Shown here: piece after piece, positions 19,039 to 64,000 of the stretch
Layout: each line of letters opens with the position of its first letter
Position numbering within the stretch: position 1 is the stretch's first letter
Assembly: GCA_006386115.1 (NCBI GenBank)
Contig: VFIW01000047.1
Coordinates: forward strand, 286,290 to 350,289
Reading direction: 5' to 3'
From: Globisporangium splendens
Lineage: Eukaryota > Oomycota > Peronosporomycetes > Pythiales > Pythiaceae
DNA: 64,000 nucleotides
Notes under the pieces: model-generated
Seen by the model: only the letters and a program-made list of their open reading frames with translations
What the model was told of the DNA's origin: nothing
Database searches by the model: none
Position numbers and translations under genes: made by a program

Positions 19039-19768
19039 ATGCTGAGCACCGTCCTGCGCCGCACGTCCGTCGCGGCCGCCAAGCAGTCGCAGACCCTCGG
19101 CGCCGCCGCCACCACGGCGTCCATCCACTCGAGCGCTGCGGCGTCCAACCAGGTCGCGCAGCGCGGCGACGTGTCGGAGCTGCTCGCGGGCAACGCCGCT
19201 GCGCGCAACAGCGTCGGTGCGTGAAAATGAGCAGTTCTTTTGTCCTAATGGTTGCGTTGTAAATGGCGGCGTTCGATTAACGGCGTTGTTTGTGTGTGTG
19301 CGTATAGAGTACGTGGTGTCGAAGGTGGATGATCTGGTGAACTGGGGTCGCCGCAGTTCGCTGTGGCCGATGACGTTCGGCTTAGCGTGCTGCGCCGTCG
19401 AGATGATGCAAGTCGCCGGTTCGCGTTACGATTTCGAGCGCATGGGTATGGTGTTCCGTGCGTCGCCGCGTCAGACCGATGTGATGGTCGTCGCCGGTAC
19501 GCTGACCAACAAGATGGCGCCGGCGCTTCGTCGTGTGTACGACCAGATGCCCGAGCCGCGCTACGTCGTGTCCATGGGGAGTTGCGCGAACGGCGGTGGG
19601 TACTACCACTACTCGTACGCCGTCGTGCGTGGCGTGGACCGCATCGTGCCTGTCGACATCTACGTGCCGGGCTGCCCACCGACCGCGGAGGCGCTTCTTT
19701 TTGGGCTCATGCAGTTGCAGAAGAAGGTCAAAGCCAACAAGTCGCTCTTGCTCCGATTGAGAAAGTAA
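19039..19768 (+). CDS. NDUFS7: NADH dehydrogenase Fe-S subunit 7 (complex I PSST), copy B
   Basis: Exon 1 is 19039-19216 and exon 2 is 19308-19768, with an intron from GTGCGT to ATAG; the product has 212 residues. The N-terminus ([16 protein letters not shown]) is a typical mitochondrial presequence. The core has all N2 ligands ([23 protein letters not shown]) and ends KSLLLRLRK. It is GC-rich at third codon positions like the other housekeeping genes here, so it is probably the principal copy. It is a paralogue of the gene at 13986-14689, with the kinase pseudogene between them. Confidence 0.93.
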
Positions 19769-46258: not shown

Positions 46259-46793
46259 TGTAACCGGACACGTCCGAGTTACGCAGCACGGTACGTGTGT
46301 GAGGAAGCGTATTCAACGCTTCTCTCAAGGACTCCGTTCCGAGAGCGGTTGCCTGCTTCCTGCAGTGCAACGATTGGTTACCTATAGGTCTCTATAGAGT
46401 AACCGTCGATAACCAAAGGCTTTAGTTAACGGTAAAAATGGAACTGTTTATTCGTTGGAGGTTGCCCTCTGTAGAACAACCTGGATTATCTTTATGTAAC
46501 TATGAACAATAGCAATCTCAAGTGTAATTACTCCCCATGGGGCAATGAGTGGCTATGAAAGACTAACGTTAGTTGTCTTATGTGATTGGATGAAATGCAT
46601 GTTCAATTATGTCCAATCGGAGGCGCCGTCATTCAGACTGGCTGCCGGCTCCACCGTGAAGGTTCGAGCAAGTACGACGAACCTCATGGTTCGGTCTCAA
46701 ACTTGTTGCGCGTACTCTACGTACCGCAAGGTTCGGTTTGGTTGTGTGGCACAACACAAGTGCTTAACCATGTTACAGTGTAACCCCGCTACA
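46259..46793 (-). repeat. 3' LTR of Ty3/Gypsy element 1
   Basis: It is 535 bases and starts and ends TGTAAC...GCTACA on the plus strand (TG...CA). The copy at 53226-53760 has exactly the same length and differs at about 16 positions with no indels. On the element's own strand it is preceded by the polypurine tract 46803-46794. The five bases outside (46254-46258, ATCTA) would be the target-site duplicate; the other copy is not in the window. Confidence 0.85.
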
Positions 46794-46803
46794 CCACCCC
46801 CCA
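46794..46803 (-). other. Polypurine tract of element 1
   Basis: On the minus strand it reads TGGGGGGTGG directly before the LTR start TGTAGC. This is the expected primer for plus-strand DNA synthesis. The identical tract flanks the LTR of element 2 at 53761-53770. Confidence 0.7.
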
Positions 46804-46977
46804 CTTAAAGTGCGAAACACTCGAAGGGTCGGTGTGAGAAACGTGTGGATCTCGCGCGTGTGCGCCGAGAAAGGGGAACATTCGTGTATTCCTCGGGAAA
46901 GAGCACAGCGGCGGCGCGTGCGTTAATTTCACCGAGTGTTGGCACATATAGTCACTGTGCTCGCGCACGTGAGTATC

Positions 46978-48522
46978 ATGGCCACCAACAAAGCTGTCCG
47001 CGAGAAGCTCGCGCGACAAAAAGGGGAAGGCGTCGGCACTCTCGTCGAAACTCTGTGCAAGCGCGAGGAAGACAGAGAGGTCGCGTCGAGCGCAAGACGA
47101 ACGACGGTCGCCGCGGATGCGGTCGACGTGCCTGCGGAGAGCGACGGCAGGTCTGCTCTCACATCTGATAGCGCTCCTGCTATAAGCAGTGAGTTGCGAT
47201 TCGGAGATCTCCCTTCCGTGAAGCCGTTGTTCGCGCGTGCTTTGGAAGAGGAGGAAGTGACTGAGGAATTCCTCGTCGTTGACAATGACGGGAGCTCGCT
47301 TGAAGACGAGGGAGCGCTCACCATGAAGCTCGGCTCCGTCGACGAGTGGGTCGAGTACGAGGAGTTGCAAAGCGAGCGACACGCCGCTTATCTCCACGAG
47401 CTCGAGCGAGATCCATCCGCTGACGTCTCGATGTATCGGACGAAGGAGGAAAATGACGCCGTTGAGGCTGTCAATAATCGTAAGAGGAAGCACGAAGTCC
47501 TCATTACAAACGAAGAGGCAGGAGTGCGAGCCATCGTTCACGATGAGCTCAAATACTCACTGCCCGAAATGCCGCCGCCAGAACTATGGCCGGCTGGCAA
47601 GACCGCATCGAATCTGCTCGCGAGAGCCAGACTTTGTGCGCGGGACTATGACGCCCAATTTAAAAATTGGCGTGAAAAGCGATTGCGGGATGAAAATGGG
47701 GAATTGCGTATTCACCCGATCCCAGTCGTCCTCTTTGTTGGAGAGACGGAAGAAGAGTACGATGCCGACTTCATGTCGTGCATCAATAAAATTAAGGGAG
47801 GTAGCACTCGCACAGTGTCTACCGATCCGACAACGCAACGCAGTCAACGCATGCAATTTGCAGTTGACCGTGTTCGTCTGTTTCGCTCCAAGCAGGGCGG
47901 TGGCACGCCTCTGCGAGCGGGTGGTCGCGCTGGTAACAGGCGACAAATTACTCGCGCGAATGACAGTCCCTCAGTTGCGCCTCAAAGGCGTCAACAAGAT
48001 CCGGGACGTCTTCGCGAAGACGCTCAGCAGGCTCCCACGAGCTCTGCGACACATCGTACCCACGCCACTTCACAAGGTAGTGGGTGTTCCCCTTCCGCCG
48101 CTGCACACGCAGCAGGCGCTCAACATGGTAGTGGCGCTGTCCCTGCTTGTCAATCAGCGGGACAGGTGGCGCTCTACCGCGCTTCAGCATCGGTGGTTGC
48201 ACCAGATGCGATGGTTCAGATGGTTCGCGCGAACGCATCGTCTTTGGGGGCGCTACAGCAAGCCGTCCGTACCCTTCGCCAGCAATATCTGGACGAAACC
48301 TCGCTGTTGAAGCAGAGGGTGACAGCGCTTGAGACGGAGCTGAAGGAAGTTCGTCAGATGCTGGAGGAGTACCATGTCCGCGGGAAGCACTTCCACGCGA
48401 GGTACGCTCCGCGAGTGAAGACGCTTTGGGAGAGGCACAACGCGCTCGTGTCTCTATGGGCGGCGTCTGAGCCCCCTGATGAGACCGACGTTCTCCCGGA
48501 CTGGGATAAGAATCCACAGTAG
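46978..48522 (+). CDS. Antisense ORF of element 1 with C-terminal coiled coil
   Basis: It is open for 514 residues from ATG 46978 (MATNKAVREKLARQKGEG); an in-frame ATG at 46936 is possible. It runs opposite to gag-pol. The first 965 bases lie between pol and the 3' LTR and the last 575 are antisense to the end of pol. An acidic, Lys/Arg-rich N-terminal half contains a compact-looking part (about 100-290; LGSVDEWVEYEELQSERH, RLRDENGELRIHPIPVVLF). A Gln/Ser/Ala-rich linker follows, then a coiled coil (about 425-490; LRQQYLDETSLLKQRVTALE). No known domain is seen. Element 2 carries the same ORF. A regulatory or nucleic-acid role is only speculation. Confidence 0.6.
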   Translation: MATNKAVREKLARQKGEGVGTLVETLCKREEDREVASSARRTTVAADAVDVPAESDGRSALTSDSAPAISSELRFGDLPSVKPLFARALEEEEVTEEFLVVDNDGSSLEDEGALTMKLGSVDEWVEYEELQSERHAAYLHELERDPSADVSMYRTKEENDAVEAVNNRKRKHEVLITNEEAGVRAIVHDELKYSLPEMPPPELWPAGKTASNLLARARLCARDYDAQFKNWREKRLRDENGELRIHPIPVVLFVGETEEEYDADFMSCINKIKGGSTRTVSTDPTTQRSQRMQFAVDRVRLFRSKQGGGTPLRAGGRAGNRRQITRANDSPSVAPQRRQQDPGRLREDAQQAPTSSATHRTHATSQGSGCSPSAAAHAAGAQHGSGAVPACQSAGQVALYRASASVVAPDAMVQMVRANASSLGALQQAVRTLRQQYLDETSLLKQRVTALETELKEVRQMLEEYHVRGKHFHARYAPRVKTLWERHNALVSLWAASEPPDETDVLPDWDKNPQ

Positions 48523-51500
48523 CGTCATGGTAGCGCTTAAGCAAACCCACGTAGAACACGGAGTGCGTTGCCATTCTCGTTGGGAGATCGAGCTTGTAAT
48601 TCAAGTCTCCAATCTTCTCCACAACAGTGTGTGGCCCGACGAATCGTGGCAACAACTTACTCCCGCTGGGGAGCGTTGTGACTGCATCGTTTGGTAGGTT
48701 TTTAATGCTTAAAAGCACTTTATCACCAACACAAAACGTTTGTTTGTTCTTTCTACCCGATTTATCGGCGTAGAGCTTTTGCTTGTCTTGCGCAGCAGCT
48801 AGTTGGTCGCGTACGCGACGCAACAATGCTGCGCGCTCATCGACAAATTGCCGCGCTGCCACGACGGCTTTGTCTTGCTTTTTCGTTGCTCTCGCAGCGC
48901 GTGCTGCAGAGAGATCTATTTCTGCGCCGGTGTGTGACACTGCGCATCCTTCCATTCGTGGCTGACGCTCACACGAGCAGTCGCCTGATTCCGTCTGAGA
49001 CTGGCTATTTTTAGCACGAGTAACGTAACTCGGTACCGTGGGAGAGCCATCTATAGACACACGAGTACCGTAACTTGGTACCGTGGGTGATCCATCTTTA
49101 GGGACACGTGTACCGTAACTCAGTACCGTGCCCGACATGTCAATACTCTGCGTGCCGTCCGGTAAGACCGTGACAGATTCGGAACGCGATCGCACAGGCG
49201 GCGCATCACGCGCGTCCACGTGAGCGGTCGACGCCACGTCCGGTGACGGAGATCGCGTGCTCGTATCGAGCGCAGTGAGTTGCCCTCCCACCGCAGAACG
49301 TTCGACGCCCTCAAACAGAGTGGCAGGTACGCGCGGGTGCCGCAGCGAGTTAAAATAGAACGGAGTCACGGCCGTAGAGGCGTGCTCGCTGCTATTTATA
49401 GCAAACTCGGCGTACGGCAGCCAGCGGCTCCAGTCGCGGGGATGGTCGACAGCGATGCTGCGAAGAATATCCTCGACGACACGGTTCACGCGCTCAGTTT
49501 GCCCGTCTGTCTCGGGGTGATCGGCAGTGGACAACGCCAGATCTGTGCCGAGCAGGCGAAAGAGTTCGCGCCAATTGGCGGCGGTAAAACGCGAGTCCCG
49601 GTCTGATACAATAGACTCGGGCAAGCCGTGATAGCGGAACACGTGCTCTAAAAATAGGCACGCCGTCTCTTGCGCAGTGACATGCTTGCGCACGGGTGCA
49701 ACATGCACCATTTTGCTCAGTCGGTCGACGAACACGACGACGCCTGTGTTGCGCGTCTTGTCTTCCGGGAAATCGAAGACGAAATCCATGCTGACCGACT
49801 TCCAGCAATCTTGCGGAATCGGCAGCGGATGCAGCGGCGCTTTGTTCTTGCCCGCAGGCTTCACGCGCTGGCACTGTTCGCATGAACGTACATAATTGGC
49901 CACCCATTTGTATTGGTGTGGCCACCAAAACACATTGGACACTTGCAAGAAGGTCTTTTCACGCCCGAGATGCCCACTCGCTGGTGCATCGTGAAACTCA
50001 TGCAGGATCGAAAGTTTCAGATCCTGGTCATGCGGTACATACACACGCGGGTAATCAAAGTTGGACAGTCGATGCCACAACAACCCATCGTGGTAACTAA
50101 ACCGAGCAAGCTTTGACTCGAGTTTGGCAGGCAATGACTCTTTGGACGAGCCGTCAAAGTGAGCAAGCAACAAGCGACACTCATCGTCCTTTGCATAAAG
50201 CGACTGAATATTGTCCTTGAGCTTTGTTTGCACTCGACTGATGCTCAGATGCATGAGATCAGGAGTGCGCTCCAAACACAGGGCGTCAGAGCTGTCGTCA
50301 ACGCTCGACTCGTAATCTGGACGGCGCGAGAGCGCGTCCGCCAGAACATTTTCCTTTCCCGGTTTGTATTCTACCCGAAAGTTGAACTCGGAGAAGAATG
50401 CAAGCCATCGCGCCATTCGCTGCGATAAATGGGGGGAATTAATCGCGGTCCGCAAGGACGCGTGATCAGTGTACACAACGAACGGTGTCGCACCCAAAAG
50501 GTGGACCCTGAACTTCAAGAGGGCGTACTTGATCGCAAGCAGCTCCTTGTCGTGCACAGGATAATTCTTTTCAGCTGCCTTAAGCAGTCTGCTTTGGTAC
50601 GATACGACGCGCTCATGGCCGTCATCATCCTTCTGCATCAGCGCACAGCCGATTGCAAAATCGCTGGCATCGCACACGACACTGAAAGCTTTCGTGTGGT
50701 CCGGCAACGCCAGGACAGGAGCGCGAACAAGCGACTCCTTCACGTCAATGAATGCATTCATGACATCATTCGTCCAGTCCCACTCGACATCCTTTTTCAA
50801 GAGATGCGTGAGTGGACGGACTCTTGCCGCATAGTTGTGGCTGTACTTGTGCAAGTAATTTGCCAAGCCAAGCCACTTGCGCAAGTCCTTGACATTCTTT
50901 GGGATCGGCCAGTCGGCGATCGCCTTGATCTTCTCTGGGTCCGCGCGGACTCCAGCTTTGCCAACATAGCAGCCCAGGATCGGAATCTCTGAGGCGCCAA
51001 AGATGCACTTCTTCAGGTTGCAATACAGACTGTTGTCTCGTAAGCACTGCAACACTGAGCGCAAATGTCTCTTGTGCACGTCAACGGCACTGAGATCTCC
51101 TTCGGCACGACTGTGCACGAAGATGTCATCGAAATAGCTCGGTGCATACGCACGATGAGGACGCAGAAGATGCATTACCAGACGATTGAACGTCGCTGGT
51201 GCATTCCTCAAACCTTGCGGCATAACGAGCCACTCCCACAGCATCCCGCTGGGTGTGCTTACTGCCGTCAAGGGAACGTCACTCTCTCGCATGAGGATCT
51301 GATAGAACCCATCCATCAGATCCAGTGCGGAGAAAACTGTCGAGCCGCCCATGGAGTCGATCAAGACATCCTTTCTTGGGATCGGCGTTTGTGCCGGAAT
51401 GGTGGCGGCGTTCAGCTTGTTGAAAGCGTGAACAATGCGCCAGCCACCAGTCGCTTTCCGCACACAAAACGTGGGTGAGCTATGTGGAGACTTGCTTTCT

Positions 51501-53143
51501 CTCACATGACCGGCGAGGGCTCGTTTCGCGAAGAACTCGTCGATTGCCTCAACCTGCTCGCGGGGCAGCGGCCATTGTCTGGTCACGCAACATTTGCTCC
51601 CAGGCTCGAGATCGATCTCGTGCCGTACGCCACGATCAACGGGCAGGGCACTTGGCACTTTGTCGGGAAACACATCTTTGAACTCCCACAATAAGTCAAA
51701 GTATGGACTGCCTTTCACGGCGTCCCAATCCTGAGCAGCAAACCGTTTCTGTTTGTCTGGCTCCAAAACACTCTCATCCGCAGTGGACGAGGTGCACAGT
51801 TCGCCACGCGGAAACGCGGTGGGAACGACGATCTCGCGGATCTGGTCACGCTCTAGATCCGTAAGAAAGAGTTCATAGCTCATTTCTTCGAGGGATACGA
51901 TCGCCTCAGCGGTACTCGGCAGCTCATGGAGCGCCGCAAATTCAGCGAAGAACACTTCGTCTAATGCGTTTGCTTCCGGACTGCGTGTCGCGCGTCTGAG
52001 CGCCACGTCAACGTGAGCGCGATCTATCGACGGATTCGAGATCCTGTCGAAGGCGCGCAGCGAAGTTGCAGCTGCATTGAGAGATGGGGCAATCATATGC
52101 GAGGCGGCCGTTTCCTCAGCAACAGATGCCAATGTACTGTCTCTCTCGCGAGCTGACAACTTGCGTCGCCCTCGTCGGTTGATGCGAACGCGCGACCTCG
52201 CGGTTCTGAGCTCCAGTACTGCACCGTCAGGGTGGTACGAGCTGGCTGACGCGTGTACACCTGTACTGTCGCTGTCACTTGCGGGGGCTGGCTCAGATGC
52301 TCTGGAGCCGCACACTTGCGCACCAGTGTCCACGTCTGGACTTTCTGGCGCTTCCGCACTAACTGGGCTACCTGCCGCAGTTGATCTCTTTGCTGGGCTC
52401 CCTGCCTCAGCGCATCTTCTAGCTGGGCTCGCTGCCGCCGCGTGTTCAAAGCTCGCATCCATTGCGTGGAAATTTTCCCGCAACCTTCGCTCTTCATCAG
52501 AGGAAGGGGTGGAGCTTCCGATTGTGCGTACTCGCCAATCGATCCAAGGCTGATGTTTCGCCAGCCAAGGCATCCCTAGGATGAGGTCGTACTTCGACCC
52601 CATCGCTAGTACCACGAACGTTTCTTTGCAAACAAAGTCGCAAAAACTGAAAGAGAGTTCGACTCGAATTCCTTCAGCGTGTACTGTCGACCCATCGGCC
52701 AGACGTACGATCATCTTCTCGCGCTTGCCACTGTGGACAAGTCGGTCATACGCTTGCAGACTCTGTTCCAGAGCTGCCTTAGAGACGAAGTTCTGTGACG
52801 CACCGCAGTCAACAAGAACCGTCATTTTCTTCTCATAGCCCTTCACATCGGCGCTATATACCAACATCTCACTCGGAGCCTTGTTGCCAAGAGCTCCTGG
52901 GACTAAGCTTCCCATCTGCACGACTCTAGTAGTCGGCGACGCCGAAGCTATAGAGTCTGTCTCAGTAGAGCGTCCCGCTTCTACTGAGACATTCCGATTC
53001 CCTTTCTTGCTACAGCGGATCTGCCACCTCGATGAGCGTGGTTGCTGCGCGGCGTTTGGTAGTCCCTCGCCTGATTTCCAGTGCGAGGAGCAGACTGCCT
53101 TGGAGCGGGACACTTCGACTGATAGTGTCCCCGCTTGCCACAA
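47948..53143 (-). CDS. pol: Pol polyprotein of element 1 (PR-RT-RNaseH-IN-chromodomain)
   Basis: Open for 1731 residues; translation probably enters at about 53005 by -1 frameshifting from gag. Order: aspartic protease (LVDCGASQNF, about residue 112; Cys in place of the usual Thr/Ser), reverse transcriptase (YFDDIFVHS, about 670), RNase H (VVCDASDFAIGCALMQ), integrase with the HHCC zinc site (H...HLGREKT...CEQCQRVKP, about 1060) and DDE core (SMDFVFDFP, SDRDSRFT, TDGQTERVNRVVED), a disordered Ser/Pro linker with 42-base repeats, and a C-terminal chromodomain (about 1670-1725; RHYHVERLLRVQ, YLVKWRGYDVSQSSWEPAE). It is intact. The chromodomain should steer integration to methylated histone H3. 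Confidence 0.95.
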   Translation of the reverse strand: MWQAGTLSVEVSRSKAVCSSHWKSGEGLPNAAQQPRSSRWQIRCSKKGNRNVSVEAGRSTETDSIASASPTTRVVQMGSLVPGALGNKAPSEMLVYSADVKGYEKKMTVLVDCGASQNFVSKAALEQSLQAYDRLVHSGKREKMIVRLADGSTVHAEGIRVELSFSFCDFVCKETFVVLAMGSKYDLILGMPWLAKHQPWIDWRVRTIGSSTPSSDEERRLRENFHAMDASFEHAAAASPARRCAEAGSPAKRSTAAGSPVSAEAPESPDVDTGAQVCGSRASEPAPASDSDSTGVHASASSYHPDGAVLELRTARSRVRINRRGRRKLSARERDSTLASVAEETAASHMIAPSLNAAATSLRAFDRISNPSIDRAHVDVALRRATRSPEANALDEVFFAEFAALHELPSTAEAIVSLEEMSYELFLTDLERDQIREIVVPTAFPRGELCTSSTADESVLEPDKQKRFAAQDWDAVKGSPYFDLLWEFKDVFPDKVPSALPVDRGVRHEIDLEPGSKCCVTRQWPLPREQVEAIDEFFAKRALAGHVRESKSPHSSPTFCVRKATGGWRIVHAFNKLNAATIPAQTPIPRKDVLIDSMGGSTVFSALDLMDGFYQILMRESDVPLTAVSTPSGMLWEWLVMPQGLRNAPATFNRLVMHLLRPHRAYAPSYFDDIFVHSRAEGDLSAVDVHKRHLRSVLQCLRDNSLYCNLKKCIFGASEIPILGCYVGKAGVRADPEKIKAIADWPIPKNVKDLRKWLGLANYLHKYSHNYAARVRPLTHLLKKDVEWDWTNDVMNAFIDVKESLVRAPVLALPDHTKAFSVVCDASDFAIGCALMQKDDDGHERVVSYQSRLLKAAEKNYPVHDKELLAIKYALLKFRVHLLGATPFVVYTDHASLRTAINSPHLSQRMARWLAFFSEFNFRVEYKPGKENVLADALSRRPDYESSVDDSSDALCLERTPDLMHLSISRVQTKLKDNIQSLYAKDDECRLLLAHFDGSSKESLPAKLESKLARFSYHDGLLWHRLSNFDYPRVYVPHDQDLKLSILHEFHDAPASGHLGREKTFLQVSNVFWWPHQYKWVANYVRSCEQCQRVKPAGKNKAPLHPLPIPQDCWKSVSMDFVFDFPEDKTRNTGVVVFVDRLSKMVHVAPVRKHVTAQETACLFLEHVFRYHGLPESIVSDRDSRFTAANWRELFRLLGTDLALSTADHPETDGQTERVNRVVEDILRSIAVDHPRDWSRWLPYAEFAINSSEHASTAVTPFYFNSLRHPRVPATLFEGVERSAVGGQLTALDTSTRSPSPDVASTAHVDARDAPPVRSRSESVTVLPDGTQSIDMSGTVLSYGTRVPKDGSPTVPSYGTRVSIDGSPTVPSYVTRAKNSQSQTESGDCSCERQPRMEGCAVSHTGAEIDLSAARAARATKKQDKAVVAARQFVDERAALLRRVRDQLAAAQDKQKLYADKSGRKNKQTFCVGDKVLLSIKNLPNDAVTTLPSGSKLLPRFVGPHTVVEKIGDLNYKLDLPTRMATHSVFYVGLLKRYHDATVDSYPSPGERRSHQGAQTPPIETRARCASPKASSLAERTSRGSASRGHGTPPASDELPSAPSQALSPSASTARFRPDIAGEGYGRLAVAPPKTMRSREPSEPSHLVQPPMLKRGRAPPVPLIDKQGQRHYHVERLLRVQRRKGNTHYLVKWRGYDVSQSSWEPAERLREDVPDLVDAFEAQLRDCHSRE
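49017..49137 (-). repeat. Three tandem ~42-base repeats in the pol linker
   Basis: On the minus strand three units of about 14 codons encode variants of GTVLSYGTRVPKDGSP, GSPTVPSYGTRVSID and GSPTVPSYVTRA. They lie between integrase and chromodomain. The same array is present in element 2 (55967-56087). The frame is preserved in both copies, so it is part of pol. Confidence 0.75.
52959..53005 (-). promoter_or_regulatory. -1 ribosomal frameshift signal at gag/pol, element 1
   Basis: In the gag frame the heptamer A AAG GGA (53005-52999) has the X XXY YYZ form. After a spacer of 8 bases comes a hairpin, 52990-52959, with a perfect 10-11 bp stem (GTCTCAGTAG / CTACTGAGAC) that contains the gag stop TAG. 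Shifting back by one base at the heptamer leads exactly into the open pol frame. The layout is that of known -1 signals; it is not tested here. Confidence 0.75.
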
Positions 53144-53225: not shown

Positions 53226-53760
53226 TGTAACCGGACACTTCCGAGTTACGCAGCACGGTACGTGTGTGAGGAAGCGTATTCAACGCTTCTCTCAAGGACT
53301 CCGTTCCGAGAGCTGTTGCCTGCTTCCTGCAGTGCAACAATCGGTTACCTATAGGTCTCTATAGAGTAACCGTCGATAACCAAAGACTTTAGTTAACGGT
53401 AAAAATGGAACTGTTTATTTGTTGGAGGTTGCCCTCTGTAGGACAACCTGGATTATCTTTATGTAACTATGAACAATAGCAATCTCAAGTGTAATTACTC
53501 CCCATGGGGAAATGAGTGGCTATGAAAGACTAACGCTAGTTGTCTTATGTGATTGGATGAAATGCATGTTCAATTATATCCAATCGGAGGCGCCGTCACT
53601 CAGACTGGCTGCCGGCTCCACCGTGAAGGTTCGAGCAAGTACGACGAACCTCATGGTTCGGTCTTAAACTTGTTGCGCGTACTCTACATACCGCAAGGTT
53701 CGGTTTGGTTGTGTGGCACAACACAAGTGCGTAACCATGTTACAGCGTAACCCCGTTACA
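53226..53760 (-). repeat. 3' LTR of Ty3/Gypsy element 2
   Basis: It is 535 bases, TGTAAC...GTTACA, a complete match to the LTR of element 1 (about 3 percent different). It sits inside the gag of element 1. The five bases before it (53221-53225, GTGGC) are the expected target-site duplicate. Confidence 0.85.
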
Positions 53761-53944
53761 CCACCCCCCACTTAAAGTGCGAAACACTCGAAGGGTCGGT
53801 GTGAGAAACGTGTGGATCTCGCGCGTGTGCGCCGAGAAAGGGGAACATTCGTGTATTCCTCGGGAGAGAGCACAGCGGCGACGCGTGCGTTAATTTCACC
53901 GAGTGTTGGCACATATAGTCACTGTGCTCGCGCACGTGAGTATC

Positions 53945-55472
53945 ATGGCCACCAACAAAGCTGTCCGCGAGAAGCTCGCGCGACAAAAAGGGGAAGGCGT
54001 CGGCACTCTCGTCGAAACTCTGCGCAAGCGCGAGGAAGACAGAGAGGTCGCGTCGAGCGCAAGACGAACGACGGTCACCGCGGATGCGGTCGACGTGCCT
54101 GCGGAGAGCGACGGCAGGTCTGCTCTCACATCTGATAGCGCTCCTGCTATAAGCAGTGAGTTGCGATTCGGAGACCTCCCTTCCGTGAAGCCGTTGCGTG
54201 GAAAGGAGGAAGCGACTGGGAATTCCTCGTACAATGACACTCGCCCGAAGACGAGGAAGAGGAAGCTCACCATGAAGCTCGGCTCCGTCGACGAGTGGGT
54301 CGAGTACGAGGAGTTGCAAAGCGAGCGACACGCCGCTTATCTCCACGAGCTCGAGCGAGATCCATCCGCTGACGTCTCGATGTATCGGACGAAGGAGGAA
54401 AATGACGCCGTTGAGGCTGTCAACAATCGTAAGAGGAAGCACGAAGTCCTCATTACAAACGAAGAGGCAGGAGTGCGAGCCATCGTTCACGATGAGCTCA
54501 AGTACTCACTGCCCGAAATGCCGCCGCCAGAACTATGGCCGGCTGGCAAGACCGCATCGAATCTGCTCGCGAGAGCCAGACTTTGTGCGCGGGACTATGA
54601 CGCTCAATTTAAAAATTGGCGTGAAAAGCGATTGCGGGATGAAAATGGGGAATTGCGTATTCACCCGATCCCAGTCGTCCTCTTTGTTGGAGAGACGGAA
54701 GAAGAGTACGATGCCGACTTCATGTCGTGCATCAATAAAATTAAGGGAGGTAGCACTCGCACAGTGTCTACCGATCCGACAGCGCAACGCAGTCAACGCA
54801 TGCAATTTGCAGTTGACCGTGTTCGTCTGTTTCGCTCCAAGCAGGGCGGTGGCACGCCTCTGCGAGCGGGTGGTCGCGCTGGTAACAGGCGACAAATTAC
54901 TCGCGCGAATGACAGTCCCTCAGTTGCGCCTCAAAGGCGTCAACAAGATCCGGGACGTCTTCGCGAAGACGCTCAGCAGGCTCCCACGAGCTCTGCGACA
55001 CATCGTACCCACGCCACTTCACAAGGTAGTGGGTGTTCCCCTTACGCCGCTGCACACGCAGCAGGCGCTCAACATGATAGTGGCGCTGTCCCTGCTTGTC
55101 AATCAGCGGGACAGGTGGCGCCCTACTTCGCTTCAGCATCGGTGGTTGCACCAGATGCGATGGTTCAGATGGTTCACGCGAACGCATCGTCTTTGGGGGG
55201 CGCTACAGCAAGACGTCCGTGCCCTTCGCCAGCAATATCTGGACGAGACCTCGCTGTTAAAGCAGAGGGTGACGGCGCTTGAGACGGAGCTGAAGGAAGC
55301 TCGTCAGATGCTGGAGGAGTACCATGTCCGCGGGAAGCACTTCCACGCGAGGTACGCTCCGCGAGTGAAGGCGCTTTGGGAGAGGCACAACGCGCTCGTG
55401 TCTCGATGGGTGGCGTCTGAGCCCCCTGATGAGACCGACGTTCTCCCGGACTGGGATAAAAATCCACAGTAG
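53945..55472 (+). pseudogene. Antisense ORF of element 2, frame broken by one base
   Basis: It corresponds to the antisense ORF of element 1. It starts MATNKAVREKLARQK and is open to about 55195, where a run of six G (five in element 1 at 48246-48250) shifts the frame. The coiled-coil end (LRQQYLDETSLLKQRV) continues in the next frame to 55472. A segment near 54197-54268 is rewritten by small indels (29 codons in element 1, 23 here) yet the frame is restored after it. Confidence 0.6.
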
Positions 55473-56364
55473 CGTCATGGTAGCGCTTAAGCAAACCCAC
55501 GTAGAACACGGAGTGCGTTGCCATTCTCGTTGGGAGATCGAGCTTGTAATTCAAGTCTCCAATCTTCTCCACAACAGTGTACGGCCCGATGAATCGTGGC
55601 AACAACTTACTCCCGCTGGGGAGCGTTGTGACTGCATCGTTTGCTAGGTTTTTAATGCTTAAAAGCACTTTATCACCCACACAAAACGTTTGTTTGTTCT
55701 TTCTACCCGATTTATCGGCGTAGAGCTTTTGCTTGTCTTGCGCAGCAGCTAGTTGGTCGCGTACGCGACGCAACAATGCTGCGCGCTCATCAACAAATTG
55801 CCGCGCTGCCGCGACGGCTTTGTCTTGCTTTTTCGTTGCTCTCGCAGCGCGTGCTGCAGAGAGATCTATTTCTGCGCCGGTGTGTGACACTGCGCGTCCT
55901 TCCTTTCGTGGCTGACGCTCGCACGAGCAGTCGCCTGATTCCGTCTGAGACTGGCTATTTTTAGCACGAGTAACGTAACTCGGTACCGTGGGAGAGCCAT
56001 CTATAGACACACGAGTACCGTAACTTGGTACCGTGGGTGATCCATCTTTAGGGACACGTGTACCGTAACTCAGTACCGTGCCCGACATGTCAATACTCTG
56101 CGTGCTGTCCGGTAAGATCGTGACAGATTCGGAACGCGATCGCACAGGCGGCGCATCGCGCGCGTCCACGTGAGCGGTCGACGCCACGTCCGGTGACGGA
56201 GGTCGCGCACTCGCATCGAGCGCAGCGAGTTGCCCTCCCACCGCAGAACGTTCGACGCCCTCGAACAGAGTGGCGGGTACGCGCGGGTGCCGCAGAGAGT
56301 TAATATAGAACGGAGTCACGGCCGTAGAGGCGTGCTCGCTGCTATTTATAGCAAACTCGGCGTA
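54897..56364 (-). pseudogene. pol: 3' end of pol, element 2 (integrase end and chromodomain)
   Basis: It encodes the integrase end, the Ser/Pro linker with the 42-base repeats, a GPY-like part (LLPRFIGPYTVVEKIGDLNY) and the chromodomain, matching element 1. The extra G at 55195-55200 splits it into 56319-55174 and 55187-54897. The 5' side is cut off by element 3 at 56365. Confidence 0.85.
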
Positions 56365-57013
56365 TGTAATGGGCTATAACCAGGCCATTACCCTGAAGGT
56401 GGATCTGTCCCAATCTAGTGTGTAACACACCAACCTTCAGCGTGCATGGTGGCGAGACACAAATAAAAAGAAGATTACCGGTAATACAGTCCCCACATGC
56501 CAGTGTGACTCAGGCGATGACGTCACGAGTGTTCTCTGTGGATCGTGCGAATGTTGTTCTCATGTATAATTCAGTACAGAGTGATAAATCATCATGTACT
56601 TAAGAAAGGAATGAGTGATGGTTCATGCTTGGGAAACTGGAGCGCGAGACCGACGTGTCTCGCCACCGGGAGTGAGTGGCGCGAGCCAATCACTTTCAGA
56701 TTTAAATAAGACTGACAGTTCAAGCTTCTAGGAAGCATCCCGTAGGTTAAACCTCGTGTACCCAAAGGTTTTATATATCAGATCATAAGGTTTTATGTTG
56801 TATATTAGGTTTTTAAGTTATAATAACACGTTGTAGGATCCCTTGGGGTTCATTAGTAAGTAGCGACAGGAACCATAACCATTTTTAATTCAGTTGCAAA
56901 TTTTCCTCCAAGTACTCAAGTCTTCTTCCTCCCTCCAAGTCGGGAGATCGCTTCCTCTGGCAGAAGCGTGTGTGCCGTGTTTGAGGGACTGTTTGGAACA
57001 GCGCCCTCTTACA
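56365..57013 (+). repeat. 5' LTR of Ty3/Gypsy element 3
   Basis: It runs from TGTAATGGG to CTTACA, about 649 bases, and matches 63367-64000 with many small differences. It begins with an imperfect terminal inverted repeat (TGTAATGG...CCATTAC). The five bases before it (GCGTA, 56360-56364) are the expected target-site duplicate. No similarity to the 535-base LTR of elements 1 and 2 was seen. Confidence 0.88.
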
Positions 57014-57015
57014 CC

Positions 57016-57033
57016 TGGTAGCACTTCGAGTGG
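57016..57033 (+). other. Probable primer binding site of element 3
   Basis: TGGTAGCACTTCGAGTGG starts two bases after the LTR. TGG is the complement of the tRNA CCA end. The matching tRNA was not identified. Confidence 0.45.
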
Positions 57034-57132
57034 TCCTTCCAACGACCCAGTGAAGTGAAGAGGTTTGACGACGCGGCTTTAAGCACGTCGCGCATTCCTG
57101 TCTAAGACCCTGCGAGCATCCTTGTTTGGAAC

Positions 57133-58182
57133 ATGGATGCTACAGGAACCCCACTCGGTCCAGCAGTACCGGAAACTGTCGAGTTAACTATTGAGGGTTT
57201 CCCTCATTTGTCTTCTCATGAGTGGATGGCGCTTGAGCGCATGCGAGATGTCATCGGAGAGGCTGCTGTGGTCAGTCTGCTTCGATCGGCATCTCCGGAG
57301 GACCAGAAGAGCGCGGTGGTCAGCTTCATGCACCACGAGATCATGTCCTCCCGGAAGCAGGTCGCAACCCCTGTTTCCTCACTCAGGACGGTGCCACTGA
57401 AGCTCGACGTCTCTCCGTATCGCGGCGGAGAGAACGAACCCCTCTCACGATGGTTCGTCGAGTTGGATGCAGCCATCGCTGCAAGACAACTGCGAGACCC
57501 TTCGCAGCAAGTGTTGTTCGCGATGTCCAACCTTGTGGGTCGTGCGAAGAGCTGGGCGTATGGCAAGCGTTTAGCGGATCTAAACTGCTTCCCCAGCTAC
57601 GAAGACTTCAAGGCAGAGCTCAAGGCAGCGTTTGAACCTCCGCAGAGTGAGTTCCGTGCGCGCGCCGAGTTCCTCAAGCTTCGTCAAGGCCGTTTCGACC
57701 TTCACTCGTATGCACAACGTGCTCGCTACTTGGTGTCGAGCATCGTTGACGAGCCGATTGACGTTCCGACGCAAGTCGTGACGCTCATGACGGGTCTGAA
57801 CGATGGTCCGATTCGGAACCAACTGTTCCGCGAGCACCCCAAGACGCTGGACGAAGCCATTGAGCGTGCGATGCAAGAAGAGTTCAGCATCAAGCAAGCG
57901 AAGTTCCACGGGTTTGCGTCAAGACCAATGCGGCAATCAAATATTGCGCATGATGGTCCCGAACCCATGGACATCTCGTACATTTCCACGCCTGGAAATG
58001 AGCGTCCTCGCAACGATGGGAAGTGTTTCCGTTGCGGAAAGCCGGGTCACATTGCTCGGAACTGCAAGGTGTCTTTGCCGGGTCGGCAAACGACACAGGG
58101 TGCTCGTTCGAACAACCACGATCGTTCTTACGGTCGTCGGTTCGAGCGGTCACCTGGGCCAAAAAACGGGAAAGGACAGTAG
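57133..58182 (+). CDS. gag: Gag of element 3
   Basis: Intact ORF of 349 residues. The capsid-like Retrotrans_gag region (about 85-230; WFVELDAAIAARQLRD, AFEPPQSEFRARAEFLKLRQ) is followed by one CCHC knuckle, CFRCGKPGHIARNC (about 300), and a basic tail. Gag forms the particle and packages the RNA. The stop TAG (58180-58182) lies inside a frameshift hairpin. Start chosen as the first ATG (MDATGTPLGPAVP), about 120 bases after the LTR. Confidence 0.93.
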   Translation: MDATGTPLGPAVPETVELTIEGFPHLSSHEWMALERMRDVIGEAAVVSLLRSASPEDQKSAVVSFMHHEIMSSRKQVATPVSSLRTVPLKLDVSPYRGGENEPLSRWFVELDAAIAARQLRDPSQQVLFAMSNLVGRAKSWAYGKRLADLNCFPSYEDFKAELKAAFEPPQSEFRARAEFLKLRQGRFDLHSYAQRARYLVSSIVDEPIDVPTQVVTLMTGLNDGPIRNQLFREHPKTLDEAIERAMQEEFSIKQAKFHGFASRPMRQSNIAHDGPEPMDISYISTPGNERPRNDGKCFRCGKPGHIARNCKVSLPGRQTTQGARSNNHDRSYGRRFERSPGPKNGKGQ

Positions 58183-58200
58183 GGGCGGGGACTCCTACTG
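58161..58200 (+). promoter_or_regulatory. -1 ribosomal frameshift signal at gag/pol, element 3
   Basis: The heptamer A AAA AAC (58161-58167) is in the gag frame in X XXY YYZ phase. A 9-base spacer follows, then a hairpin 58177-58200 (arms CAGTAGGGG and CTCCTACTG, 9 pairs including one G-U). The gag stop is in the first arm. The -1 frame opens into ERTVGAGTPTGPEKR and is the same frame as the bulk of pol downstream. Confidence 0.72.
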
Positions 58201-61200
58201 GCCCGGAAAAGAGGACTGTGGACGTTGTGGAGACACAGGACTCTGGCCCTATGTGCATCAAGCACATGCAGTTTCCACTACGAGTGAGAAGAGTGTCAGT
58301 CAAACGTCAAGTTTGATCGTTCACAAAGCTCATGTAGACGGTATTGCAACGCCTCTACGAGCTTTGGTTGACACTGGTGCGTCGAACAACTTTGTTCGAG
58401 ATGAAGTGATCGTCAGGCATGGTGTCTTCGTGCCTGATGCGAATGAAGAGAAGACAATGATTGTCCGATTGGCAAATGGGTCAACTGTGAAGATGCCGAA
58501 GGTGTGGTGCGCTTGGCAATCAAGTGTGAAGATTTCCGAGGTGAAGGCGAGTTCATTTTACTCGACCTCGATGACAAGTTTGACATCATCCTGGGAATGC
58601 CATGGTTGAAGCGTTATCAACCTAGCATTGACTGGATGAATATGAAGATCTCCGTTGGCAAGTCACGAGATGTTGACTTGTGCTGCACAACAACGGATGA
58701 AGTGGTATGGGTGTACACATCTGTGGAAGAGATCCCAGATGGCCCTTGTGATATTGCGGTGTGCGATGGCCCCCAATGTTCACAAGCGGTACCCATTTTG
58801 AAGACGACGAACGGAGGTGGAGCAGTCAGGCGCCAGAAAAAGACTGTCTCCTTTGCCATCGACGACGACAAGGTTCGCGATGGCGTTGACAAGAGTGAAT
58901 GGAAGAGGAACAAACACCCTTCCCAAGACAAGAAGAAGAAGACCAGCAAGAGAAGTTTTTCGTCAAGAGTTTTGAGTTCCCCTGATCAAGGTGCAAGTGG
59001 TGATGACGAAGGGAGTGTCCAAGCACAAGACATTCCAAGCGAGTTTGTGGATATCGCGGTCTACAATGAAGAAGGTGACGTGGATGTAATCCGTCACGTG
59101 AAGATTGAAAATCCTCCAAGTTCAGTCGAAGAGTTGATTTCCTTGCCATCGATGAGCAAGAAGACACTGGAGCGTAGCCTAGTGAGAGGCGATATTGCGC
59201 AGGTGTGTGTGATCGTCGAAATGGTCGACGAAGGCTTCGTCAACACGCATCGAGTGCGGATGCAGATGTGTTGGACGAAAAGACACGGAAGGAAAGGTCC
59301 GAGGAGCAGTCGTGGGACTCCCTCAAGAAGAACCCCGTGTATGCGCTTGCCAGGGAATATGAAGACATTTTCCCTGACAAGGTGCCGGACGAACTGCCAT
59401 TCGATAGAGGCATTCGTCATGAGATTGATGTACTTCCTGGCACGAAGTACTGCATCACAAGACAGTGGCCGTTGCCAAAGGAACAAGTCGAGGCAATCGA
59501 CGAGCTCTTTGCACAACGTGCTAAGGCTGGTCATGTGCGGGAGAGCAAGTCTCCGCATTGCAGCCCCACTTTCTGTGTGAAGAAGGCAACTGGAGGTTGG
59601 CGCATTGCTCACGCTTTCAACAAGCTGAACGACGCGACAATTCCAGCCCAGACTCCGGTTCCACGCAAGGACATGATCCTTGATGGAATGGTCGGCAGCA
59701 CCGTCTTCAGTGCTATCGATCTGAAAGATGGGTTCTATCAGATTCGAATGCGCGAAGACGATGTACCACTAACCGCAGTGAGTACCCCGAGTGGTATGCT
59801 GTGGGAATGGTTAGTGATGCCACAGGGGCTGAAGAATGCTCCTGCGACCTTCAATCGAATGGTCACGAACGTTCTTCGTCCTCTGCGAACATTTGCACCA
59901 AGTTACTTTGACGATATCTTCGTTCATAGTAAGGCCACGAATGGGAAGTCTGATGTCGATGTTCATCTCGATCATCTTCGTCGAGTTTTCCAGGTCATGC
60001 GTGAGAACAAACTCTACGCAAACTTGAAGAAGTGCATGTTCTTCGCCCCCGAGATCCCTGTTCTCGGTTGTTTTGTGGGCAAGAACGGTGTTCGAGTCGA
60101 TCCGGAGAAGGTCAAAGCTATTGACGATTGGCCAGTGCCTCAGAACGTCAAACAGCTACGACAATGGTTGGGTTTAGCCAACTACTTGCACAAGTACACG
60201 CGCAATTATGCAGCGTTGGTGCAACCCCTCACACAACTCTTGAAGAAAGACGTTGAGTGGAAGTGGTCGAAAGACCATCAGACGGCGTTCGAAGAAGTCA
60301 AGAGGAGTCTTCGAGAAGCTCCTGTGTTGGCTCTGCCAAACCGCGACAAGCCGTTCCACGTCGTCTGTGATGCGAGCGATTATGCCATCGGTTGCGCATT
60401 GATGCAACACGATGACGAGGGCCATGAGCGAGTTGTGTCGTATCAGTCACGACAACTCCGACCCGCAGAACGGAACTACCCAGTTCATGACAAGGAACTT
60501 CTGGCGATGAAGTATTCTTTGGTCAAGTTCCGTGTGTATCTGCTTGGAGAGGAGCGCTTTGCGATCTACACTGACCACGCATCTCTGCGTACGGCAGTGA
60601 AGACTCCTCATTTGTCGCAAAGAATGGCGAGATGGTTCTCCTTCTTTGCAGAGTACAACTTTGTTGTACACTACAAGCCAGGCAAGACGAACATCTTAGC
60701 TGATGCGCTGTCAAGACGTCCGGATTACGATCCGAAGACCAAGAGTGAAGACACGGACGGAGCGTGTCGACTCTGTGAAGATGTTCAAGCGATCGCGGTG
60801 CGAGCTGCGACTACAGTGCGAGAAGAGATTGTCGAAGGGTACAAGTCTGACGAAACATGTCGGGACTTGTTGAAGTACTTCAAGGACCCTTCCGACAAAG
60901 CACTGCAAGGTCTTCCGTCGCGCACAAGATCGCGAGTTCACCGCTTTCGAGTACACAATAGGTTGTTGTACTATGCGGTCGAACAAGGGGATACAGCAAG
61001 GGTTGTTGTTCCCAACGACGAAGGTCTGCGTCATCGACTCTTGTATGAGTACCATGGCAGTCCTTCGGGTGGCCATCTCGGACGTGAGAAAACGTTTCTC
61101 AGTCTTTCCCGGGATTACTACTGGCCACGCATGTACAAGTGGGTTCGCAAGTATGTGAGGACTTGCGAGATCTGCCAACGAGTGAAACCCTCTGGTTCCA

Positions 61201-62947
61201 CGCAGGCACCACTTCGTTCATTGGCTGTCCCATCGGACAGTTGGAAGTCTGTGAGTATGGATTTCATATTCGGACTTCCAAGAGACACACATGGACGCAA
61301 TGGCATCCTTGTGTTTGTGGACCGATTCAGCAAGATGGTCCATCTTGCGCCTGTTTCGGACAAGATCTCTGCTGAGAAGACTGCCAAGATCTTTGTAGAC
61401 GTCGTATTCCGTCTACACGGACTACCAGTCGAGATCGTGTCTGACCGTGACACCCGTTTCACGTCCAAGTTCTGGCGTGCGCTCTTCGGACTTCTGGACA
61501 CCAAGTTGTCCATGTCAACAGCGGCACACCCTGAAACGGACGGTCAAACAGAGCGAGTGAATCGTGTCCTCGAAGACGTGTTGCGCAGTTACGCAACGTC
61601 TTTCAAAGAGTGGAGTGAGTTTCTCCCTCTTGCCGAGTTTGCATTGAACAACTCCACGCATGTCTCGACAGGTCACTCTCCATTTTATGTGAACTATGGC
61701 ATTCACCCTCGAGTGCCTGCTTCCATAATGGGTGAGGTCTCTACCTTGAGTGGGGGAGGGACTCCGGCTCATGGAAACAAGCCGAAGTCGTCTTACGACC
61801 TGAATGCTGCTTCCGAGTTGAAAGCCAATTTTGACTCGATGAAACCCCTCGACGACCTAACAAGTCGTGAAGAGCAGCAAGTCGATGACTTTGTTGTGAG
61901 GAGGCAAGCCGTTGTGAGGTTTGTTCGAGACGCAATCGCGAAGGCTCAGGATCTGCAAAAGGAACAAGCAGACAAGAGCGGAAGGAAGAACAAGCAAGTT
62001 TATAAGATCAACGATCTTGTATTACTTAGCACGGCGAACCTGCCTGAACATGCAGTGTCCAACTTGGGAAGCTCCAAGCTTCTGCCAAGGTTCATCGGAC
62101 CGTTCAAGGTAGTGAAATGCAATGGCGATGCCTACACGCTAGGCATACCTACACGCATGCGTCTACACCCGACATTTTATGTGGGTAGACTGAAGCCTTA
62201 CCTTCCAAGTGGATCTGCGGATCCTGCGAGATCTTCCGCAAACGATCGAGCTGATCGTGAAGCTTCTCCACTTGATTGCGAAGAGCAAACAGCTCATCGC
62301 TCTGGAGATTCTTCTCGACGTACAGGAGTTGCAGGACGTCGAAGGATTGGTCCTTCACTGCCTCCAACGCTTGAAGACGAGAATGGTACTCGCCACGAAG
62401 TACCTCGAGTGCCGGACCTGCCTCTTCCACAGAGCGTAACAGGCGATCGTGAGCCAACTCACGGGACTTCTCGTTCTTCTGGAGTCGAACAAGTTCGTCC
62501 TGAACCTGTTGGAACCGTTCCTCATAACGGGACTCCAAAGCCGAACACTGGGCAGAACCTTCTGTCAGGACGTCGATCTTCGACTCATGATCGGCGACAA
62601 GGTTCTCGAGACTCTCGCAGCGTTCCTCAAGCGTCGAACAACGCTGCTGCAGCGCCTCGATTTGCCCACGATGAGCACTCTTCCACTTCCAGAGTCGCTC
62701 AATCGTTTTCTCGTTCAGCCCCACCCCGTTGTTAGACTCTCAGGGAGAGCATCGCTGGGTGGTTGAGTCGATTGTTGATCATGAAGATCGACCGACTCAT
62801 CGTCGAGGAAAGAAGCAGTTGAACCATCAACACTCCTACAGAGTTCGGTGGCGTGGATATCCACCGAGCTCGGACACGTGGGAGCCTCGTCAGACATTGG
62901 AGTCTGATGTTCCCGACGTGATCCGCAGCTATGAGAACTGCTTGTAG
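58168..62947 (+). pseudogene. pol: Pol of element 3 (PR-RT-RNaseH-IN-chromodomain), frame broken
   Basis: Protease LVDTGASNNF (about 58370), reverse transcriptase YFDDIFVHS (about 59905), RNase H VVCDASDYAIGCALMQ, integrase HLGREKT...CEICQRVKP, SMDFIFGLP, SDRDTRFT and TDGQTERVNRVLED, then a disordered linker and a chromodomain (62737-62944; WVVESIVDHED, YRVRWRGYPPSSDTWEPR). The frame drops back one base at about 58240-58316, 58495, 59255 and 62715-62735; each fits the loss of a single base. The stretch 59205-62735 is open for 1176 residues. All catalytic residues seen are kept, so the breaks are recent or are assembly errors. Confidence 0.9.
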
Positions 62948-63290
62948 CGTCGCCAGGGGCGACACTACGACGACCAGAGCTAGGATTCGCTCTGTCGTCA
63001 GCAGGAGTTCTTCTTTGGGCACGAGCATTGCCACGACGAAGAAGACGCTCCATCTTGTTCTCATTCTCAAGACGAACAAATGTTCGCCATGAGTCTCTCT
63101 GGGCTGCGATGTGTTGGTTCGGATCATCGCGATCGTTGATCCGACGCCAACTGAAGAACCGCTCCTTGTAGAACTCGAGCTCCCACTTCTTCTTCAGAAT
63201 GGGAGAAATGTCGAAGAGTTCTGGAGCTGTCTGCTGTCGCTTGGACGACGGACGTTCTTCACGGTTCACTTGGCCACTTGGTCGCTTCAT
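62149..63290 (-). pseudogene. Antisense ORF of element 3 with coiled coil, one frame break
   Basis: Two overlapping open frames: 63290-62715 (MKRPSGQVNREERPSSKRQQ; basic start, then DISPILKKKWELEFYKERFF) and 62724-62149 (coiled coil of about 150 residues; IEALQQRCSTLEERCESLEN and on). One missing base at 62715-62735 explains both this break and the pol/chromodomain break on the other strand; together they would give about 380 residues. An in-frame ATG at 63389 lies in the 3' LTR. The coiled coil is antisense to the pol linker, as in element 1. No sequence similarity to the element 1 antisense N-terminus was seen. Confidence 0.55.
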
Positions 63291-63353
63291 TGCCAATTGG
63301 AAAGTGAACTGCTCCGAAAGGTCTGCAAAAGTACGCAAGGTACTTGTGACTTT

Positions 63354-63366
63354 AAGGAGGGGATGA
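63354..63366 (+). other. Polypurine tract of element 3
   Basis: AAGGAGGGGATGA lies directly before the LTR start TGTAATGG. The position fits the plus-strand primer. Confidence 0.6.
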
Positions 63367-64000
63367 TGTAATGGGCCATAACCAGCCATTACGTGAAGGT
63401 GGATCTGTTCCCAAATCTAGTGTGTCACACACCACCTTCAGCGTGCATTGTGGAGACACAAATAACAAAGGGATTACAGTAATACAGTCCCCACATGCAC
63501 GTGTGACGTCATTCGATGACGTCATGAGTGTTCTCTGTGCTGATCAGTGCAGAATGTTGTTCTCATGTACTAATCAGTACAGAGTGATAACATCCATGTA
63601 CTAATCAAGTACTGAGTGATGGTTCCTGCTTGGGAAACTGGGCTGGCGACGAGACCGACGTGTCTCTGCCGCCTGGAGTGAGTGGCGCGAGCCAATCACT
63701 TTGCATGGATTTTATACAAGACTTGAAGTTCAAGCTTCTAGAAGATCCCGTAGGTTCAACCTCAGTGTACCCAAGGTTTTATATATCAGATTCATAGGTT
63801 TTATTGTGTATGTTTAGGTTTTAGTTATAAAACGTGTAGGATCCCTTGGGGTTCATTTGTAAGTAGCGACAGGAACCATAACCTTTTCAATTCAGTTGCA
63901 AATTTTTCTCCAAGCCCTCAAGTCTTCTTCCTCCCTCCGAGTCGGGAGATCGCTTCCTCTGGCACAAGCGTGTGTGCCGTGTTTGAGGGACTGTTTGGAA
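63367..64000 (+). repeat. 3' LTR of element 3, cut by the window edge
   Basis: It begins TGTAATGGGCC and matches the 5' LTR along its length; the last 15 bases or so are outside. In the first 165 bases I count roughly 18 substitutions and single-base indels against the 5' LTR, so the two LTRs are not young twins. Confidence 0.88.

Follow-up and report, generated by a model that had tools for sequence, protein, structure and literature searches.

Sequence evidence for antisense accessory genes in chromodomain-bearing Gypsy elements of the oomycete Globisporangium splendens

A chromodomain-bearing Ty3/Gypsy element of Globisporangium splendens almost certainly carries, on the strand opposite gag-pol, a genuine protein-coding accessory gene, as judged from the sequence. 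The gene occupies 46978-48522 on the plus strand of the window (the whole stretch of 64,000 nucleotides analysed here, positions 286290-350289 of its contig). It is an open frame conserved within its family, with an omega of 0.38-0.40 where it does not overlap pol, and the copy in the window belongs to what we call class A. Antisense frames of similar layout were found in two further families (D and E), and the substitution patterns presented below indicate a real antisense protein-coding gene under natural selection in three separate Gypsy families of G. splendens. What the protein does is a matter of graded likelihood: there is about an even chance that the best explanation as a whole is right, namely a genuine antisense accessory gene whose product is a nuclear coiled-coil regulator of the element.

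The antisense gene and its host element

The frame encodes 514 amino acids followed by a stop codon when read from the ATG at 46978 (MATNK); a version started at GTG extends over 46936-48522. Most full-length relatives also begin with MATNK, which favours this ATG as the start. It lies 184 bp from the inner edge of the 3′ LTR (46259-46793, minus strand), just inside which the sequence contains a presumed polypurine tract (AAGTGGGGGGTGG on the minus strand, 46794-46806). The first 970 bp of the gene (46978-47947) are free of pol, and the remainder (47948-48522) lies opposite the last 575 bp of pol, where the frame ends. A Pfam scan of the window pol (47948-53143, minus strand) matched protease, RT, RNase H, integrase and a chromodomain, the last at 47978-48130, opposite antisense residues of about 334-384. 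The element thus has the RT-RNase H-integrase order and C-terminal chromodomain of chromodomain-bearing Ty3/Gypsy elements, and the LTRs of about 534-551 bp, together with PPT-like and PBS-like sequences, are those of an LTR retrotransposon.

The LTR at 53226-53760 (minus strand) is common to this element, as its 5′ LTR, and to element 2, as its 3′ LTR. Element 2 is a truncated copy (53226-56364) interrupted by another Gypsy element at 56364-64000. The pol genes of both copies contain a short repeat with 45-base spacing (86% identical, 49015-49130 and 55965-56080). Elsewhere in the window there are inverted repeats at 6665-8320 and 16437-18073 (76-78%) and direct repeats at 14225-14685 and 19304-19764 (85%).

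The initial annotation had described a frame running against gag-pol and recurring in element 2. For the family the first description holds; in the window copy gag is missing, so the frame runs against pol alone. A deletion of about 1 kb at the inner edge of the 5′ LTR (53226) took gag and the primer-binding-site side and left the pol frame open, and the LTR-to-LTR spacing is 6967 bp, as against 7.9-8.0 kb in most of the relatives examined. In relatives with the longer spacing a 396-codon gag frame precedes pol, and since gag is there in its usual place, a gag encoded on the antisense strand was ruled out. Element 2 does contain a copy of the antisense gene (plus strand, 53903-55282 as a frame and 53945-55282 as a gene copy), but this copy is frameshifted before the coiled coil, so that its coiled-coil end lies in another frame.

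The antisense gene is part of the mobile unit. Target duplications of 5 bp flank six copies, of class A (L009, L012, L015 and L020) and of class B (L021 and L022), and the LTR pairs of these copies are 98.3-99.6% identical, indicating recent insertions. Among the 15 copies listed, L013 has both ends and no matching 5-bp duplication, and eight others had no exact end or sat in arrays with shared LTRs. Of 21 copies chosen by antisense match (L009-L028 and the window copy), 19 have an open gag and 20 an open antisense frame. Only four have a pol frame that is open from end to end, a figure to which assembly indels may contribute.

The predicted protein was modelled poorly overall (mean pLDDT 57, pTM 0.29). 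Its best ordered portion in the model is an alpha/beta part formed by residues 190-306 (47545-47895, plus strand), which gave no fold match. Residues 409-497 (48202-48468, plus strand), encoded opposite the pol linker, are modelled as a single long helix (block pLDDT 67-92) with 69% hydrophobic a and d positions in the best of seven heptad registers, and presumably form a coiled coil. The protein would begin with a short conserved stretch, followed by the ordered domain, a linker of low model confidence and the long coiled coil at its C-terminus. In the sequence, the residues preceding the coil are rich in A, S and Q. A long antisense frame of the element's own, ending in a coiled coil, had been proposed from a first reading of the DNA; it is present where proposed, with the coil predicted at residues 409-497.

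Selection in and outside the pol overlap

In 2000 sequences generated from the region by a first-order Markov model, the longest frame had 369 codons and none reached 514. When the first part of the gene was compared between a class A and a class B copy (L009 and L025) by the NG86 method, dN was 0.50 and dS 1.34 (ratio 0.375), and the differences in the non-overlapping part fell on codon positions 1, 2 and 3 as 130, 119 and 186 (chi-square p = 1.4e-4). The even spread over codon positions that had been named beforehand as the outcome speaking against a gene was thus absent. A codon model of the non-overlapping part gave an omega of 0.40 when ten sequences from the three classes A, B and C were included, with class C entered up to its stop only (2dlnL 87.2 against an omega of 1), 0.38 for A and B together (2dlnL 66.9) and 0.56 for B alone (2dlnL 11.2). 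The dN/dS comparison of family members outside the overlap, which the initial annotation had called for, therefore points to purifying selection (omega 0.38-0.40, likelihood ratio test p below 1e-15). In class B all gaps but one have lengths divisible by three. Among 13 recent A copies there were 13 synonymous and 17 non-synonymous changes and no stops (p = 0.10, a weak test). Ten B copies showed 63 synonymous and 91 non-synonymous changes and one stop (p = 0.0013, uncorrected for relatedness); this set excludes L031, which has no exact start, and includes L030 and L034 despite their early stops.

A captured host gene or a chance open frame is barely credible as the origin of this gene. In the excerpts of the literature available, transduction of host genes explains some accessory ORFs of LTR elements, but the 38 matches at E ≤0.1 among the candidates listed are G. 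splendens records or short contigs and on the whole appear to be copies of the element. The length is beyond that of chance frames, and the layout recurs in three families.

Within the overlap, antisense codon positions 1, 2 and 3 face pol positions 1, 3 and 2. When pol was recoded synonymously, the antisense frame remained open in 173 of 20000 recodings for the window family (class A, 190 codons), in 4 of 20000 for family D (240 codons) and in 2776 of 20000 for family E (157 codons); the open overlap of family E is therefore unremarkable by itself. Comparison with class C separated two blocks. Opposite the chromodomain (36 codons), L009 and L021 differed from class C at 9, 14 and 5 antisense positions 1, 2 and 3, the most variable being antisense position 2, which is pol position 3. 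Opposite the pol linker (65 codons), the counts were 27/24/45 for L009, 27/24/46 for L021 and 29/23/47 for L025 (p = 0.018, 0.012 and 0.009, respectively), and antisense position 3, which is pol position 2, was the most variable. The same DNA opposite the linker aligned in the antisense frame with a score of 176 and few gaps and in the pol frame with a score of 85 and many gaps, at similar identities (37% and 38%, respectively). Among recent copies of A and B the linker part gave 11/14/12, with no antisense constraint visible. On these alignments, conservation is stronger on the pol strand where the chromodomain is encoded, and stronger in the antisense coiled coil where this faces the pol linker. 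Selection can apparently fix a coiled coil on the opposite strand because the pol linker is free to vary, and pol keeps its chromodomain.

Allele classes and two further families

A search of the genome of origin (53.3 Mb, 195 contigs) gave 191 candidates, the best 82 of which were scored. Among these 82, 65 matches cover at least 502 residues, 51 without and 14 with a stop; such counts rest on the best candidates and are biased towards intact copies. At the protein level, 27 of 35 matches to the window frame are from G. splendens, one is the window's own record, and the remaining seven are relatives on short contigs, 38-64% identical. Most full-length relatives of 38-52% identity begin with MATNK, or in one case MPTNK, and retain the middle block and the C-terminal motifs YAPRVKxLW and DWDxxPQ; the start of P0031 is missing from its database record. 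In three gene models (P0002, P0006 and P0017) Gag or a D-type antisense protein is fused to an A/B-type antisense protein. The Gag fusions in P0002 and P0006 are probably gene-prediction artefacts of adjacent copies.

The class B protein is about 60% identical to class A (window) overall and 44-45% identical in the first part (340 aligned codons). Class C is a distant type, a remnant with one stop, and the pol chromodomain opposite it is 64% identical. In class B a diverged cassette replaces the stretch corresponding to 46978-47947. Between L009 (A) and L021 (B), DNA identity per 250-base window is 95-100% from the LTR through gag-pol, element ends excepted, and 48-67% over about 910-2016, which comprises the non-overlapping antisense part and the leader; windows straddling the edges are 86% identical. 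That near-identical elements carry such a diverged gene part suggests that diverged antisense alleles have been shuffled among closely related elements. Other copies show further combinations. L025 and L026 are of class B with a second LTR type, and the gag-pol of L025 is 88-99% like that of L009 by window. The LTR of L024 partially matches the second type; L027 has the second type and is class B to about 1350 and class A beyond. LTR1 accompanies A in 13 of 14 A copies (L018 is mixed) and accompanies B in L021-L023. A strict association of LTR type with antisense class was ruled out, as LTR1 occurs with both A and B, and a regulator specific for the LTR of its own element finds no support in this.

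Rapid divergence and cassette exchange would both be explained if the protein suppressed host silencing, by RNAi or chromatin, in an arms race. Outside the overlap, 55% of residues differ between the two classes, while L009 and L021 are otherwise 95-100% alike, and in two of six windows along the antisense gene the A-B ratio rises to 0.76 and 0.90. The overall omega is nevertheless well below 1, and Pfam searches of the window protein found no RNA-binding or suppressor domains, so that we consider a silencing suppressor unlikely.

The Gypsy element that interrupts element 2 represents family D (56364-64000, plus strand; gag 57133-58182). Its pol (59205-62735, plus strand) is 48-51% identical to class B pol in the integrase region, and in the window copy the frame is broken before the chromodomain. 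The antisense gene of this copy (62149-63290, minus strand) is in two frame pieces, 63290-62715 and 62724-62149. Open copies exist elsewhere: the gene encodes 349-355 amino acids and is open in L035 and L037, where the pol facing it has a chromodomain at its end. For the N-terminal part, the best 150 of 439 candidates were scored and 133 of these 150 list no stop, and the N-terminal domain has a ratio of 0.19-0.24 when the window copy is compared with L035-L037 (72-95 codons). Opposite the pol linker, the window copy and L035 (140 codons) differ at 28, 21 and 65 antisense positions 1, 2 and 3 (p = 4e-7), position 3 being pol position 2, and the same DNA is 69% identical in the antisense frame and 45% in the pol frame. 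The corresponding counts against L037 are 28/18/50. Among 53 protein matches, with identity down to 43%, 42 are from G. splendens. The family D model (mean pLDDT 71, pTM 0.26) predicts a three-helix N-terminal domain at residues 39-92 and a coil at 191-354.

In family E the antisense gene (L048, 973-2580, minus strand; also L049 and L050) encodes 533-536 amino acids; the best 81 of 133 genome candidates were scored. Outside the overlap the ratio is 0.34 for L048 or L049 against L050, with 25/20/49 and 23/20/48 differences at positions 1, 2 and 3, respectively; L048 against L049 gave 0.83 on just 15 differences. Within the overlap the counts are 2/15/12, with no clear antisense pattern. To the eye, the C-terminus looks coiled-coil-like.

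The pol proteins of both families matched integrase and chromodomain models, and in both the antisense gene sits 3′ of pol. The overlap phase, for D as derived from the coordinates, is identical in the window family, D and E, and all three genes reach into the integrase-chromodomain linker. The D and E antisense proteins are apparently homologous: hhalign, with a family E profile built from two sequences, gave a probability of 80% (E 1.4e-5) across the N-terminal domain and the linker. For the window protein, homology to D or E is not claimed: hhalign gave 9.8% (E 0.0033) and 0.9%, respectively, over coil and linker only. Of the Gypsy families of the genome three were examined, and all three have an antisense gene.

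An antisense transcript would overlap pol on the opposite strand, and it could itself be the active product, controlling copy number as dsRNA or siRNA with the protein as a by-product; control of this sort is discussed for plant elements in the available portion of one source (PMC7264820). We regard this as very improbable, given that the protein is under purifying selection, that its start codon and C-terminus are conserved, and that third-position differences are in excess in A, D and E (in E outside the overlap).

Candidate functions and known antisense genes

A nuclear accessory regulator is favoured by the coiled coil, the basic patches, the proximity of the gene to the LTR and the parallel with Grande gene23 and Retand. 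The 5′ end of an antisense mRNA would lie between the 3′ LTR and the start codon at 46978, and the transcript would extend back into pol. Its product would be a self-associating nuclear protein that acts on RNA, DNA or chromatin of its own element and thereby tunes the transcription or integration of that element, as has been proposed for Grande gene23 and the Retand ORFs. We give this mechanism, the likeliest in our view, a probability slightly short of even. Basic patches are found in class A (NRKRKH) and in family D (KR...SKRQ), and we read them as candidate nuclear signals; NRKRKH is absent from classes B and C. Near the antisense start there was no match to the oomycete promoter consensus, whose total matches, at 6, were below the 9.9 expected by chance.

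Domain and fold searches added little. For the window protein, class B, 15 family D members and family E, Pfam returned weak matches only, nearly all to coiled-coil regions. PF12325 (TMF TATA-binding) matched 2 of the 15 D members (best E 2.1e-5); it is a coiled-coil family and was not taken as homology. A PDB sequence search, Foldseek against PDB and BFVD, and VIA-align gave nothing usable, and no trustworthy structure match, for A or D, and no relative of A or D was found among viral contigs by the sequence patterns used.

Alternatively, rather than regulate transcription, the protein might be a partner of the particle or the pre-integration complex that binds Gag, integrase or the chromodomain and helps with assembly, entry into the nucleus or the choice of target. 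The long coiled coil at the C-terminus, predicted by the models of two families and suspected by eye in the third, would suit such a role, as would the position of the gene opposite a chromodomain-bearing pol in all three families examined and the open gag and antisense frames (19 and 20 of the 21 copies chosen by antisense match). A protein needed in quantity would, however, be expected on the sense mRNA, and the antisense proteins have no capsid or zinc-knuckle match in Pfam. We consider a particle partner possible though rather doubtful. A partner of this kind, or a silencing suppressor, fits the observations nearly as well as the nuclear regulator does.

The HBZ protein of HTLV-1, an antisense product encoded near the 3′ LTR, has a zipper or coiled coil. 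HBZ-type proteins are described as antisense proteins with a nuclear role in the text available from one source (PMC11963269). Like HBZ, which comes from a primate retrovirus, the window gene is antisense to gag-pol near the 3′ LTR and its product has a predicted coiled coil, so that the comparison drawn in the initial annotation stands for layout; it does not extend to an HBZ-type bZIP (basic region and leucine zipper), as the Pfam matches of the window and D proteins included no bZIP family.

The likeness to plant elements is similarly one of position. According to the portions available of two sources, antisense genes lie between pol and the 3′ LTR in several plant Tat/Retand families and are suspected of a nuclear or regulatory role; Grande gene23 is nuclear with its own promoter, TRP28/Retand has predicted DNA binding, and antisense accessory genes of LTR retrotransposons are known mainly from flowering plants, their function not demonstrated (PMC11963269, PMC7264820). 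The window family, D and E share with Grande gene23, RIRE2 and Retand, as these are described there, an antisense ORF between pol and the 3′ LTR. The G. splendens elements differ in that they have a chromodomain, the gene overlaps pol and the host is an oomycete. The initial comparison with Grande thus proved apt for the position of the gene but not for its product, since the TRP28 domain (PF04195) had no match in the window protein at E up to 1, nor at 0.1 in the other proteins; for family D, 25 of 35 families were among the matches listed. Outside plants, Boty of Botrytis cinerea has an antisense aORF-3R 3′ of pol, in the available text of PMC7264820; the likeness is one of layout, and we claim no relation.

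Among oomycete elements, Chronos is a Ty3/Gypsy element with a C-terminal chromodomain and a second archaeal-type RNase H, in the part of PMC5348765 available. The chromodomain is a point of likeness; the second RNase H belongs to Chronos and was not found in the window pol, where only the RT-linked models PF17917 and PF17919 matched at E up to 1. The word 'antisense' occurs 0 times in the main text of that paper on oomycete Gypsy elements (PMC5348765). In agreement with the earlier claim that the arrangement had no prior description in oomycetes, the best-ranked matches of a search of open-licence literature contained no description of an antisense gene in an oomycete LTR element. Antisense ORFs 3′ of pol are thus already known in plant Tat/Retand elements and Boty, from the text available. 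As far as our searches go, the oomycete host, the chromodomain elements, the overlap with pol, the strand-alternating constraint, the lack of TRP28 and the allele exchange are new.

The overlap of the window gene, together with D and E, may define an ambisense class of chromodomain Gypsy elements. In such a class an ancient antisense gene would be held in one fixed linker phase in several families, coil and chromodomain would divide the overlap, and N-terminal alleles would be swapped between otherwise near-identical elements, in the manner of a gene for specificity or conflict; we see the odds for and against this reading as evenly balanced. The overlap itself would be an example of two coding strands with shared constraint in alternating blocks. 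For annotation, the antisense proteins are at present labelled hypothetical in databases, and a few entries appear to be wrongly fused to Gag. The G. splendens set would be a further case of antisense accessory genes, overlapping pol and without the plant marker domain, and since a single 53 Mb genome contains three families, two allele classes and many open copies, the role of the antisense gene should be testable in G. splendens.
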